Below are positions 27,945-35,353 of a stretch of DNA of 63,745 bases, piece after piece (position 1 is the first letter of the stretch; the number at the start of each line of letters is the position of its first letter). Below the pieces are notes generated by a model. That model had not been told where the DNA came from. It saw nothing but the letters and a program-made list of their open reading frames with translations, and did not search any database. The stretch is from Bryobacterales bacterium (GTDB lineage Bacteria > Acidobacteriota > Terriglobia > Bryobacterales > Bryobacteraceae), in contig JAOAPR010000106.1 of the NCBI GenBank assembly GCA_025463005.1, positions 1-63,745 on the forward strand. Direction: 5' to 3'. The position numbers and the translations under genes are program-made.

Positions 27945-28580
27945 CTAAGCCTTTAGGTGGGCGGGATTGCTTCGCGGGCGCTGTTTCTGTACGCCTTCAA
28001 AGATTTCGTTGAAGTCGCGGAACAGCGCCTTGTAGTTTTCGGGGTCGCGATATTCCTTCTTCTGGTAGCCCTCCCGCAGCTCATCCAGCTCGTCCACGCG
28101 GGCCCAACCCTCGGGCAGCGCGTAAGCGTAATAAGGATACTGCGGCGGGACATTGCGGGCTAACACTACATTGATCTTCCGTCCCCGTTTGCGGGCGGCA
28201 TACACGCGATGAATGCCGTCGTTGATCAGCAAAACCTTGCTGCCGTCGCGTTCGACCGATTCCTCGATCACCGGGGGCAGAAACGGGATGGGCGCATCGA
28301 GATCCGGATCGGTTCCATGGGGCCAGAACAACAGCGCGCCGCGTAACGCGAAAATGTCGATTCCGCGCAGCTCGAACGCGTCCGCCACGTCCAGAATCGC
28401 CTGAACTCCTTCTTGCAGCACATAGCGCTGCGCCGGGGTGAGCGCCTCGGGATCGGCTTCCAGGATTTCGAGCGTTGCGTCTTTGTACACCTCCGCGCGA
28501 TCGAACCCGCGCAAGCGAGTGCGTTTCAAGCGGCTCAACAGGTCGGCTTCGGTCAGCAGGTCATACTTGATAATTTGCAT
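27945..28580 (-). CDS. ParB/sulfiredoxin-like protein
   Basis: A 211-residue cytoplasmic protein. Its central motif INDGIHRVYAARKRGRKI (about 122-139) resembles the DGxHR core of the ParB N-terminal/sulfiredoxin fold that binds nucleotides, including the free-serine kinases SerK and SbnI. No helix-turn-helix of chromosome-partition ParB is seen. The N-terminus is helical and acidic. It is the third gene of a packed operon behind a HAD hydrolase (3 bases) and a thymidylate-synthase-like gene, so a nucleotide- or phosphoryl-transfer role is a reasonable guess, not shown. Confidence 0.65.
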   Translation of the reverse strand: MQIIKYDLLTEADLLSRLKRTRLRGFDRAEVYKDATLEILEADPEALTPAQRYVLQEGVQAILDVADAFELRGIDIFALRGALLFWPHGTDPDLDAPIPFLPPVIEESVERDGSKVLLINDGIHRVYAARKRGRKINVVLARNVPPQYPYYAYALPEGWARVDELDELREGYQKKEYRDPENYKALFRDFNEIFEGVQKQRPRSNPAHLKA

Positions 28581-28583
28581 TGT

Positions 28584-29261
28584 TTAATAAACGTGGCTTA
28601 GTAATTTGGACGGTTCCAATTCCGCGATCGAAGCGAGCGTGAGGTCGGGCGGCGGCGCGTCTCCATTCATCACGTCAATCAAGTCGGCCTTCTCCTTCTC
28701 GGGACGGTGCAGAACCCACACGGTGCGCATCCCCAGCTCGATGGCCGGCCGAATATCGTTCTTGTAAGTATCGCCTACCATGACGGCGTCTTCCGCGCGA
28801 GCTTCCACGGCGCGAAGAGCCAGTTGGAAAAACGCCGGATCCGGTTTCATCAGGCCGGTTTGAAACGAAAGAAACTGAGGCTGGTGCTCGGCTTCTTCCG
28901 GAAACTCCTGCCGGAAGTGTTCGTAGAACGGAGGCCAGATATTCGATAGGTATGCTCTGGGGATCCCGCCCGACTTGAGCTTTTCGATTAGCTCCCGCGC
29001 GCCGGGCAGAACATAGGCTTCCTGAAGCTGGGCGTTCCAGAGGGCCGTGCACGCCTCCAGCGCGCGATCGTGATCCACGTGCAGCCGGTTGACGATCGTG
29101 TTCGCCAGTTGCTCCGGATCGCGCGCGGGCGAGCGAAATAACAGGCGCTCCAGTTCAGGGACCGCCTGCGGGCCGAGCCCCAGAGTCTCCGAGAGCCGCC
29201 GGGCGGGACCAAACGGAGGACCGTCGATCAGCGTAGAGCCAATATCGAAGAACACGATCAA
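28584..29261 (-). CDS. HAD-superfamily hydrolase
   Basis: A 225-residue HAD protein. Motif I is FFDIGSTLIDG, with the nucleophile Asp6 present, but the second aspartate of the usual DxDxT is a glycine (DxGxT). Motif II is AYLSNIW, motif III is the Lys in TGLMKPDP and motif IV is VMVGDTYKNDI. The cap is helical (type 1). DxGxT forms occur in some HAD families and may have weaker phosphatase activity or different chemistry. The ATG overlaps the upstream stop by 4 bases, so it is coupled to the thymidylate-synthase-like gene. Confidence 0.9.
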   Translation of the reverse strand: MIVFFDIGSTLIDGPPFGPARRLSETLGLGPQAVPELERLLFRSPARDPEQLANTIVNRLHVDHDRALEACTALWNAQLQEAYVLPGARELIEKLKSGGIPRAYLSNIWPPFYEHFRQEFPEEAEHQPQFLSFQTGLMKPDPAFFQLALRAVEARAEDAVMVGDTYKNDIRPAIELGMRTVWVLHRPEKEKADLIDVMNGDAPPPDLTLASIAELEPSKLLSHVY

Positions 29262-30778
29262 GAAGACTTTTCCTGGGCGGCCTTTTCCTGAGAACGCGCC
29301 GCCTTCATTTCAAATTCCTTGCGCGCCACTTCGCGGCCCAAATAGAGCGCGTGTGCGATCTCCGACAGCGCCACGTCGCGCGCCAGTTGCCGCTCGATCT
29401 CTTCCGCGCTCTTGCCGCGATATTCGCCGATCTTCATGCCGTTGTAGGAGTGCTCGACCACGATCTCCCACGTCGCCCGGTCGAACGTAGTCGTGAACGC
29501 GCCGTTCGGATCCATCCGCGGCCCAAGCTTGCCTGTGGCCGGATCGTGCACTTCGTCGGATTCCTTGCTGGTGGCGATCTTCCGAGCTTTTTCGAGCGAA
29601 GAAACGTCGATGCTGATGGAGTGGCTGAACACGGTCAGCGGACCGGGCTCCATGCCAGCCTTCTCCGCGACAAATCGTTGAATCGCAATCAGCCCGTAGA
29701 CGTTCTCCGGCCAGGCCTCCATCGCGTTGTGCGAACGAAACGTCGCCGTCAGTGTCAGCTTCCCCTCAAATTTCCTGAAAAACGCCGACACGAAGCACGG
29801 AGTATCGGTGCCCTCCGGCAAATCGCGAGTGTTGTCCCACAGCGCGATGTAGGCGTGTCGCGATTCGGGCTTATCTTTCAGCCGCTGCGCGGTGATTTCC
29901 AAAGAATCGACGAGTTTTCCGTCCCGCCGGAAGTATCCGCGCAAACGGTTGCCGTAGGTATAGCCCAGATCAGGCGGCTTTTCGGGATCGAGAATGCGCC
30001 GCTGATAACCCTGAAACTTCTGCAGACTGAATCCGTACTGCTGCAGAATTTCGTCGGGCTCCTCTTGAGGATTTTCGATGATCGCTTTGATGTTCTGCAG
30101 CTCGACACGCCCCTCGGGCCCGCTCTTCTTCGCAACCATGTTGCGATGACCGAAGCGGAACAGGCGAAATATCAGCTCCGACCACGCCTCCATCGGCGTG
30201 TCGCGCACGATCGTGTGGCTGCGCGGCTCGGTGGGAAATCGCGTAACCGTCGGCTCGGGAATCGGCGGAGGCTCGATACGCGCAAGATCCCCAGCCTCCA
30301 CTGGGGGCAGGCCATCAAAGAAAGCCTTCAAACCCGCCTTTGTCGCCGGATCACCCACGTCTCCCAGCACGGTGAATTGCGGAATCTGTAAGAAGTTCTG
30401 CGGCTGCACGCAGCCGTCAATAGTGCGCGGAGTATTGCGAATCCGGAACGCCTTGGCTCCCAGGAACTCCACTTCTTCCAGACCATGCTCGAAGAAATTC
30501 AGTATCCACTCTCGCGAGCCCGAAAGATTCTTGCCTACGATTACGATGTGCCGGATCTGCGGATTCCACAGCAGGTTCCGCAGCATCTGCGGAAGGCCGT
30601 TTCCATAGAGGTTGGCAATAGGCCCAATCCGCGACGACTCGGGCGACAAATCGACGCCGGCCTCCTCCAGGATCTGGTATGCGGATTCTACTTTGGACCA
30701 GAGCGTGGTGATTGCGACATCGCCCTCGGAGTTAACGATCTTCAGGCGGTCCTGGTAGTAGAGAGCCTCAAACTTCAC
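29258..30778 (-). CDS. Divergent thymidylate-synthase-fold protein with extra N-terminal domain
   Basis: A 506-residue protein. Residues about 1-165 form an extra domain (IGPIANLYGNGLPQMLRN, then RHIVIVGKNLSGSREW), resembling the DUF4346-type domain seen on some TS-like proteins. Residues about 200-400 follow the thymidylate synthase plan: GYTYGNRLRGY (cf. TS GPVYG), ESRHAYIALWDN (SRR loop), the nucleophile Cys328 in DTPCFVSAFF, RSHNAMEAWPENVYGL (348-362), and FSHSISID. The residue after the cysteine is Phe rather than His, and the RSxD aspartate is Asn351, so it probably modifies a nucleotide other than simple dUMP. Downstream HAD and ParB-like genes share its operon. The TS relationship is an unaided motif call. 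Confidence 0.7.
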   Translation of the reverse strand: MKFEALYYQDRLKIVNSEGDVAITTLWSKVESAYQILEEAGVDLSPESSRIGPIANLYGNGLPQMLRNLLWNPQIRHIVIVGKNLSGSREWILNFFEHGLEEVEFLGAKAFRIRNTPRTIDGCVQPQNFLQIPQFTVLGDVGDPATKAGLKAFFDGLPPVEAGDLARIEPPPIPEPTVTRFPTEPRSHTIVRDTPMEAWSELIFRLFRFGHRNMVAKKSGPEGRVELQNIKAIIENPQEEPDEILQQYGFSLQKFQGYQRRILDPEKPPDLGYTYGNRLRGYFRRDGKLVDSLEITAQRLKDKPESRHAYIALWDNTRDLPEGTDTPCFVSAFFRKFEGKLTLTATFRSHNAMEAWPENVYGLIAIQRFVAEKAGMEPGPLTVFSHSISIDVSSLEKARKIATSKESDEVHDPATGKLGPRMDPNGAFTTTFDRATWEIVVEHSYNGMKIGEYRGKSAEEIERQLARDVALSEIAHALYLGREVARKEFEMKAARSQEKAAQEKSS

Positions 30779-30796: not shown

Positions 30797-31699
30797 CTAG
30801 GCTCCCGCGCGAGTAATTTGCGACGGATCAGCGCCCACGCGTCCGGTCATATCCTTGGCTGTCGCAGCGGCGAGCTGAAAGTCGAACTTGATGCTCGGCA
30901 GCGTCGGGATCGGCGACGCCGAATCCTTCTCGTTAACCTTCGTAACCAGCGATTCGGTCACGCCGAACACCGTATCCGAATCGACATGCTCGTCATCTGC
31001 CAGGTAGAGCGCGGTTACAACTTCGCGATAGCCAGGCGCGCCGACGATAAAGTGAATATGCGCGGGCCGATAGCCGTGACGCTTTTGAGCGCGAATCATG
31101 TCGCCCACAGGTCCATCCATGGGGATCATGTAGCCGAGCGGCGCAACCGTACGCAGGTAGTAACGGCCGTCGCTATCGGTATGGAAGTGGCCGCGCAAGT
31201 CCATCTCAGATGGATCGTGTTTTTGCAGATCGTAATTGCCGGTTTCATCCGGCTGCCATACCTCGACCGAAGCATTCGGAACACCCTTCCCCGCCCTATC
31301 CGTAACGCGTCCGTAGAGGACGACTTCCAGGCCATTGCTCGGTTTAGTGACAATCGAATCTCCCAGCTTCATGGGCGGAGAATCCTGCCGGTAGAATGGC
31401 CCCACCAAACTGCTCTTGGTCCCGGCTTCGGTTGCGCGCTTGTCGTGCAGCGAGTTGATCAGCGAGCTCATCCCCAGCGTGTCCGAGAGCAGGATGAATT
31501 CCTGTCGAAATGCCGTGCACTTCTGGCCGACGGCGGTCAGGAACTTGATGCCTTCCAGCCATTCTTCCGGCGTGAGATCCGCCTCGCGCGCCCAGGCGTG
31601 CAGGTGCCTTACCAGAGGCTCCATGATTTGCTTCAGCCGGGGATTCGGCGTGGACGCCATGTGTTCAATGGCCGCATCGGTAATGGGGTTTTCGTCCAT
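30797..31699 (-). CDS. Intradiol ring-cleavage dioxygenase, hydroxyquinol/catechol 1,2-type
   Basis: A 300-residue Fe(III) dioxygenase. An N-terminal helical domain (about 20-110, WLEGIKFLTAVGQKC) is typical of catechol/hydroxyquinol 1,2-dioxygenases and absent from protocatechuate enzymes. The catalytic beta core has the ligand tyrosines in GNYDLQKHD and GRYYLRTVAP and the two histidines in YRPAHIHFIV. It should cleave an ortho-dihydroxy ring between the hydroxyls; hydroxyquinol is a guess from VGPFYRQDSPP-type sequence. It is part of an aromatic-degradation neighbourhood with an O-demethylase and an extradiol dioxygenase. Confidence 0.9.
   Translation of the reverse strand: MDENPITDAAIEHMASTPNPRLKQIMEPLVRHLHAWAREADLTPEEWLEGIKFLTAVGQKCTAFRQEFILLSDTLGMSSLINSLHDKRATEAGTKSSLVGPFYRQDSPPMKLGDSIVTKPSNGLEVVLYGRVTDRAGKGVPNASVEVWQPDETGNYDLQKHDPSEMDLRGHFHTDSDGRYYLRTVAPLGYMIPMDGPVGDMIRAQKRHGYRPAHIHFIVGAPGYREVVTALYLADDEHVDSDTVFGVTESLVTKVNEKDSASPIPTLPSIKFDFQLAAATAKDMTGRVGADPSQITRAGA

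Positions 31700-33886: not shown

Positions 33887-35353
<1,467 letters not shown>

Follow-up and report, generated by a model that had tools for sequence, protein, structure and literature searches.

Introduction

To our knowledge, two enzymes are known for thymidylate synthesis, ThyA and ThyX. Thymidylate synthesis is essential and is a drug target. Here we describe a group of three genes on a contig of 63,745 nucleotides from a Bryobacterales bacterium (GenBank assembly GCA_025463005.1, contig JAOAPR010000106.1); this whole stretch is called the window in the following. The three genes encode a fused protein of 506 amino acids with a thymidylate synthase (TS) domain, a HAD-family hydrolase and a ParB-CE protein. 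As judged from sequence comparisons, the fused protein is most likely the thymidylate synthase of the cell, with a new architecture and encoded in a conserved mobile operon. Taken as a whole, the trio quite probably represents a horizontally acquired cassette for thymidylate synthesis which stands in for ThyX and whose members would have the enzymatic roles proposed below.

The described system closest to the fused protein is the methanogen-type TS (TIGR03283), its nearest TS relative. It also resembles the fused protein in that the methanogen control genomes contain no FolA match. The TIGR03283 model, however, covers 201 positions and has neither an MtrA-like nor a DUF4346 part, unlike the fused protein. 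With ThyA (PF00303/TIGR03284), which is compared here together with FolA, the fused protein shares the aligned Cys, Arg and Asn of the TS motifs, but it differs in an N-terminal third that is unrecognizable, in a score far below the TIGR03284 cut-off and in the missing FolA match. ThyX (PF02511) probably has the same cellular role as the fused TS, although it belongs to an unrelated family. The two are mutually exclusive in the sampled genomes of the order, and thyX of the congeners and the trio share no neighbors in the stretches examined. MtrA (PF04208), the cobalamin subunit of the methanogen methyltransferase, is a remote relative of the N-terminal domain, but its His84 is absent from the fused protein; the NCBIfam model of MtrA, NF002128 (390 positions), matches the DUF4346 part. 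Finally, ParB-CE has its fold and an NDGxHR-type motif in common with sulfiredoxin, SerK and SbnI, nucleoside triphosphate (NTP) utilizing proteins of the ParB/sulfiredoxin fold. The main text of a survey of this fold (PMC12704722) links no member to TS and contains no word beginning with "thymi". No printed description of the unit was found in the open-licence PMC literature; a preliminary description of this DNA had likewise named no described chromosomal system with exactly this set.

Results and Discussion

Organization of the trio

All three genes lie on the minus strand (coordinates are positions in the window). The TS-like gene (29258-30778, GTG start) encodes the fused protein with its MtrA-like, TS and DUF4346 domains. 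It is followed by the HAD-family hydrolase gene (28584-29261, TTG start, 225 amino acids, PF00702) and the ParB-CE gene (27945-28580, ATG start, 211 amino acids, ParB/sulfiredoxin fold, PF24392). The stop of the TS-like gene and the start of the HAD gene share 4 bases (TTGA), and a gap of 3 bases separates the HAD and ParB-CE genes. The open reading frames (ORFs) confirmed the dense packing noted before. All 8 sampled genomes of the order that encode a full-length fused TS keep the arrangement TS-HAD-ParB-CE, with the HAD gene in the middle each time. Four of these loci (L063, L065, L066 and L067; stretches of 4.9-17 kb, two of them short contigs) contain the trio without any match to the flanking genes of the window at E 1e-5. 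Because the same order is found in all eight, including four without the neighbors of the window, the grouping is not due to chance.

Exclusion of ThyX in genomes with the fused protein

The genome of the window, which is 96% complete, has no PF00303 match other than the fused protein, and a search for ThyX found none there. We sampled 150 genomes of the order Bryobacterales, among them 16 of the genus of the window. Full-length fused TS was present in 8, namely in 7 of the 16 genomes of the genus and in G364 of another genus; the row of G304 flags a TGA, its ORF nonetheless being open to its own stop. Partial matches occurred in three more genomes, G278 (a canonical ThyA), G368 and G377. ThyX was detected in 134 of the 150 genomes: in none of the 8 carriers of the fused TS versus 134 of the 142 others. 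The genus itself is split into 7 genomes with fused TS and no ThyX and 9 with ThyX and no fused TS. Fisher's test, treating genomes as independent, gave 2.4e-9 for the order and 8.7e-5 for the genus. Eight non-carriers have no ThyX; G278 of this group possesses the canonical ThyA and the other 7 match neither family (completeness of the group 74-93%).

In a sample of 247 genomes of the phylum full-length fused TS was found in 2, both of the same genus. There, ThyX was matched in 177 genomes, PF00303 in 76 and both in 10, so that at least one of them is present in 243 (row lists compared). A passage in a review reports ThyX in 6 of 6 Acidobacteria and ThyA in 0 (PMC5954106). The exclusion of ThyX rests on the Bryobacterales order sample, and carriers outside the order were searched for PF00303. 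In all 6 such cellular carriers searched (L077 not among them; completeness not given), PF00303 matched the fused protein alone. Since the fused protein is the sole TS-family match in the genome of the window and since it and ThyX exclude each other, we regard it as the most likely thymidylate synthase of these cells. The preliminary description had set a new system apart from the organism's ordinary thymidylate synthase. A thymidylate synthase the protein most likely is, but the word ordinary does not fit its architecture, its partners and, unlike ThyA systems, the missing FolA match.

ThyX of the nine congeners (L099-L107) is itself a tandem-domain protein, encoded by ORFs of 473-629 amino acids with two weak Thy1 matches each. 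The RHR motif is present in 9 of 9, and their ThyX activity is likewise a prediction. The one protein tested, L104, scored below the TIGR02170 cut-off and found no sequence match in the PDB at E 0.1; its gene neighbors look, by eye, like dUTPase and dCTP deaminase.

L004, L005, L006, L013 and L018 represent another divergent TS family, with proteins of 279-294 amino acids. It is TIGR03283-like, L005 scoring below the cut-off. The respective genomes G122, G180, G085, G113 and G037, all of one genus, have no other PF00303 match and gave none for ThyX; in G196, a sixth genome of this genus, the family occurs together with ThyX. These weak PF00303 matches from other families of the phylum were rejected as members of the unit, as they form a separate protein family and their loci of 3.4-3.6 kb gave no match to ParB-CE or HAD.

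Domains and conserved residues of the fused protein

In the AlphaFold2 model the TS domain extends over roughly residues 188-404 (29567..30217, minus strand); it was recognized by PF00303, TIGR03283 and Foldseek. PF00303 matched residues 269-399 with 47.5 bits (cut-off 24.3), and TIGR03283, the best NCBIfam match, covered residues 196-390. Both models were matched by 16 of 16 fused proteins, PF00303 at E up to 0.1. All 16 share, without exception, the residues Cys328, Arg307, Trp314, Arg348, Asn359 and Tyr361. In HMMER alignments Cys328 (codon 29795..29797, minus strand) is aligned with the Cys of the Pro-Cys motif of TS, a position which we take to be that of the catalytic Cys, and Asn359 aligns with the conserved Asn of TS, presumably the uracil-binding one.

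The C-terminal domain (residues 422-494; 29297..29515, minus strand) belongs to the family PterinBD-DUF4346 (PF14251; 55.1 bits, cut-off 29.6), which was also matched in 16 of 16 relatives. The N-terminal Rossmann-type domain (residues 1-165; 30284..30778, minus strand) is MtrA-like according to its profile match to MtrA in the PDB; its Y58 and S88 are invariant in 16 of 16. The preliminary description had spoken of a TS-fold protein with an extra domain: the TS fold was borne out, but the extra domains number two instead of one.

The match of the N-terminal domain to the MtrA family PF04208 is weak (residues 14-108, 14.4 bits, E 0.031, gathering score 25), and 3 of 16 relatives matched this family at E up to 0.1. 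In a profile search of the PDB, MtrA 8q3v was found at E 3.4e-4 and MtrA 5laa at E 2.8e-3. The designed protein 8g8i ranked between them (E 2.5e-3), and therefore the kinship to MtrA is considered remote. His84 of MtrA, named as the cobalt ligand in PMC4915002, falls into an insertion of MtrA that is absent from the fused family. Because this ligand is missing, MtrA-type methyl-cobalamin chemistry of the N-terminal domain was rejected.

The AlphaFold2 model of the 506-residue protein had a mean predicted local distance difference test score (pLDDT) of 78.9 and a predicted template modeling score (pTM) of 0.47, so that the packing of the domains is unreliable. In Foldseek the middle domain matched TS. 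The Thiomargarita-titled copy of the protein (L077:8001-9662(+)) contains three near-identical repeats inserted between the N-terminal and the TS domain.

The question of FolA

No DHFR_1 (PF00186) match was found in the 8 carriers. Among the sampled genomes of the order, G278 alone encodes a full-length canonical ThyA; a DHFR gene which matches PF00186 above the cut-off comes directly after it. The control genomes of M. jannaschii and M. acetivorans matched PF00303 and not PF00186. As a PF00186 match is missing in the carriers and in almost every ThyX genome of the order, a TS-fold enzyme seems to have entered genomes without a FolA match and to work there. Dihydrofolate may be reduced by a reductase other than FolA.

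The partner proteins ParB-CE and HAD

ParB-CE matched PF24392 with 114.8 bits (cut-off 23). It contains an NDGIHR motif (28206..28223, minus strand), which we take to be a nucleotide-binding motif of the kind seen in the ParB/sulfiredoxin fold. The conservation count of this NDG-x-HR signature showed N, D, G, H and R to be invariant in 12 of 12 rows, including those from archaea. The AlphaFold2 model (pLDDT 82.2, pTM 0.81) gave human sulfiredoxin 1xw3 as the best Foldseek match (E 1.2e-3), and the free serine kinase SbnI was a weak match (E 0.18). No Foldseek match fell below E 0.001, and the search pointed to nothing beyond the fold. ParB-CE is a putative NTP-dependent kinase or switch. A ParB-CE match was present in 8 of 8 carriers versus 0 of 11 non-carriers (the 9 congeners, G368 and G377). 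The search for phage records of ParB-CE returned none. The phage contigs L088 (5995-6582) and L089 (6001-6603) encode ParB-CE, with no PF00303 match in these records of 67.5 and 70.7 kb.

The HAD protein of the window matched PF00702 with 50.4 bits (cut-off 26.4). The nucleophile of motif I, Asp D6, is present in 12 of 12 HAD rows, and in the 4 HADs from DPANN archaea and the candidate phyla radiation (CPR) motif I reads D-x-D. For the HAD of the window and that of DPANN locus L079, the one DPANN HAD scanned, the best NCBIfam model was the uncharacterized TIGR02253, below its cut-off; for L079 the pyrimidine nucleotidase model TIGR01993 followed lower down, also below cut-off. The CPR HAD belongs to a HAD family other than that of the window. 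It matched NT5C (PF06941, the deoxy-pyrimidine 5'-nucleotidase family) with 36.8 bits versus a cut-off of 24.8 and is the sole HAD above a nucleotidase cut-off.

Distribution outside the order

A profile scan of genome contigs with the alignment of the 8 fused proteins of the order yielded 14 loci, 7 of which match genomes already found (L068-L072, L074 and L081). The record of L081 is titled Bordetella parapertussis, yet its protein matches that of G187 from the genus of the window; it is apparently a mis-titled metagenome-assembled genome. The seven new loci comprise one from the CPR lineage Zambryskibacteria (L073), three gammaproteobacterial ones (L075-L077) and three from DPANN archaea, two of Pacearchaeota and one of Woesearchaeota (L078-L080). 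All three DPANN loci show the gene order TS, HAD, ParB-CE; their HAD and ParB-CE genes overlap by 4 bases, and Pfam confirmed both partners in each. The preliminary description would have been contradicted by a trio not kept together in relatives, but the unit is conserved beyond the genus, in the 8 carriers of the order as well as in these archaea.

The CPR locus has the order dCMP/cytidine-deaminase-family gene, HAD, ParB-CE, TS, and FolD is encoded about 4.5 kb away. In the Woesearchaeota locus NrdR and both subunits of ribonucleotide reductase are encoded downstream. Because of these neighbors, the deaminase in CPR and NrdR and ribonucleotide reductase in Woesearchaeota, we assign the unit to deoxynucleotide metabolism. 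The role on a nucleotide that had been suggested for the three proteins is supported in this respect, but the altered pyrimidine considered as product is not, the fused protein being the sole TS-family protein and excluding ThyX.

Viral sequences were searched as well. A scan with the single window protein retrieved no relative. Profile scans retrieved a phage relative with 51% (L082), a distant one with 36% (L090) and the short TS-only proteins L084-L086. On the phage contig L090, ParB-CE, a cupin-like gene (below the Pfam cut-off) and TS lie together on the same strand, with this one gene between the other two. Recent prophage cargo as the source of the trio was rejected on the basis of these scans. 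The ORF of 668 amino acids that follows the phage-borne TS (L082:6779-8785(+)) resembles ribonucleotide reductase by eye and had no Pfam match at E 0.001.

Probable acquisition of the cassette

In a tree of 16 proteins the 7 proteins of the genus formed a cluster (92/94) beside the CPR protein (90/90); the protein of G364 was placed outside, its position being open. When the long-branched L090 was added (17 rows), G364 joined the gammaproteobacterial proteins and that of phage L082 (91/85). A single clade of the 8 Bryobacterales proteins was rejected by the approximately unbiased (AU) test (p-AU 7.5e-5). Because this clade was rejected, at least two separate entries of the cassette into the family are probable, with ThyX missing both times.

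In the 9 congeners, the regions around ThyX (4.8-19 kb) shared no gene with the trio regions (E 1e-20 and >45% identity), nor did they contain a match to any gene of the window at E 1e-20. The genes of these regions were defined as the longest non-overlapping ORFs, for which a mis-called frame could hide a shared gene. A replacement at the thyX site was therefore rejected as far as the stretches reach, there being no shared genes between the ThyX and trio regions.

Proposed mechanism

By analogy to ThyA, Cys328 would attack dUMP while Asn359 would hold the uracil, and the one-carbon unit would come from methylene-tetrahydrofolate. We propose that the pterin cofactor is held and passed on by the two flanking domains, MtrA-like and DUF4346, with no binding of cobalamin in the manner of MtrA. 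The missing FolA match leads to two possibilities: either an unrecognized enzyme reduces dihydrofolate, or the fused domains would permit the enzyme to work free of FolA. The HAD protein would act as a deoxypyrimidine 5'-nucleotidase and ParB-CE as an NTP-dependent kinase or nucleotide-sensing switch, and the two would jointly balance the dUMP/dTMP pool surrounding the synthase. The order of the genes and their conservation, the mutual exclusion with ThyX, the status as the sole TS-family protein and the missing FolA matches are observed, and all enzyme activities of the trio are inferred.

Evaluation of the proposed function and of alternatives

Several observations weigh against the interpretation of the trio as a thymidylate-synthesis cassette replacing ThyX. 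The fused protein missed the equivalog cut-offs of TIGR03283 (115.8 versus 174.55 bits) and of the ThyA model TIGR03284 (35.2 versus 108.35 bits), and its PF00303 match begins at profile position 88; the N-terminal third of a classic TS was unrecognizable by sequence. The Fisher values overstate independence, as the genomes are related. In 7 of the 150 genomes both ThyX and PF00303 went unmatched, so the failure to find a match carries little weight by itself. A missing FolA does not set the carriers apart, as only 4 of the 150 genomes match PF00186, 2 of them above the cut-off. The taxonomic AU test was framed after the first tree had been viewed. Near the TS of the gammaproteobacterial loci L075-L077 and of phage L082 no HAD or ParB-CE match was found by tblastn with the window proteins at E 1e-3, a search which also missed the CPR HAD. 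As no match lies nearby, both partners seem unnecessary for the TS step in these loci; seemingly they are frequent but not obligatory. All 8 Bryobacterales HADs have D-x-G (D6, G8) as motif I instead of D-x-D, the second Asp of which is usual in phosphatases. Furthermore, the HAD of the window scored below the nucleotidase cut-offs of NCBIfam (YjjG, PynA, TIGR01993) and had no PF06941 match. Because of the missed cut-offs, the D-x-G motif and the assignment of the CPR HAD to another family, we give a nucleotidase function of the window HAD about even chances.

Species lacking TS are reported to carry tdk, as stated in a passage of PMC5954106. This weighs against the cassette too and favors the view that thymidine salvage sustains the cells, with the loss of ThyX and the gain of the trio unrelated or loosely linked. 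However, exclusivity was seen in probably two independent acquisitions and in 7 versus 9 congeners, the carrier genomes measure 4.1-7.4 Mb and in unrelated lineages, too, PF00303 matched nothing but the fused protein, which makes salvage a very improbable explanation. Somewhat less remote, yet still quite improbable, is a pyrimidine hydroxymethylase acting on dUMP, dCMP or CMP, as in phages or MilA, which would provide a modified nucleotide for DNA or a metabolite to be processed by HAD and ParB-CE. The lowest root mean square deviation among the 50 Foldseek matches listed was indeed that of the CMP hydroxymethylase MilA (5jnh, 3.1 Å), distant tblastn matches included Bordetella phage proteins annotated as thymidylate synthase/deoxyuridylate hydroxymethyltransferase, and no residue was placed that separates methylation from hydroxymethylation. 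Hydroxymethylases of dCMP and CMP contain Asp or another residue than Asn at the base-recognition position, and the PDB titles among the Foldseek matches include a TS N229D mutant with dCMP. The uracil-type Asn359, conserved in 16 of 16 proteins and presumably fulfilling its usual role, speaks against dCMP or CMP as substrate. Moreover, given the exclusion of ThyX and no other TS match, a hydroxymethylase would leave the cells without dTMP synthesis.

The remaining alternative concerns the partners. HAD and ParB-CE might be a separate pair, for example with ParB-CE as a ParB-fold switch of another process, kept next to TS by operon inheritance and without a part in thymidylate metabolism. The phage contigs L088 and L089 with ParB-CE and no PF00303 match are in line with this, as are the TS genes of L075-L077 and L082 with no HAD or ParB-CE match nearby. 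On the other hand, ParB-CE was not matched in the 9 congeners and 2 further family members without the fused TS, the pair is found again with TS in all three DPANN loci and also in the CPR locus, where the HAD comes from another family, and in phage L090 ParB-CE and TS are one cupin-like gene apart. We therefore consider a separate pair unlikely. A defense system was rejected, since no trio protein had a PADLOC match at E 0.01.

Returning to thymidylate synthesis by the fused protein, the trio may be tentatively viewed as a third class besides ThyA with FolA and ThyX, a proposal to which we assign a limited chance. This class would consist of a FolA-independent TS fold with built-in pterin-handling domains, accompanied by a nucleotidase and by a kinase or switch of the ParB fold, which would set the dUMP/dTMP pool. 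The cassette would have spread among Bacteria, DPANN archaea and phages and would be able to replace ThyX. The architecture itself is a third one, the sole TS-family candidate in its genomes, with no FolA match, and it travels with two partner proteins. The unit thus opens to test the roles of MtrA-like and DUF4346 domains outside methanogenesis, a ThyA-fold enzyme without FolA and the role of a ParB-fold protein in nucleotide metabolism, outside DNA segregation. It would also correct calls of presence or absence of thymidylate synthesis in DPANN and CPR genomes.

Neighboring genes and sequence variation

Upstream of the trio the window encodes a catechol-type dioxygenase (30797-31699(-)), 18 bases from the TS gene, and a GCV_T-family protein (33887-35299(-)). 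The dioxygenase adjoins the trio also in L061, L062 and L064, and it is missing there in L063, L065, L066 and L067. In G273 (L064:7327-8868(-)) identity to the window proteins is 90% for HAD and 87% for ParB-CE, but just 77% for TS. The C-terminal tail of this TS differs, pointing to faster change or to local gene exchange.

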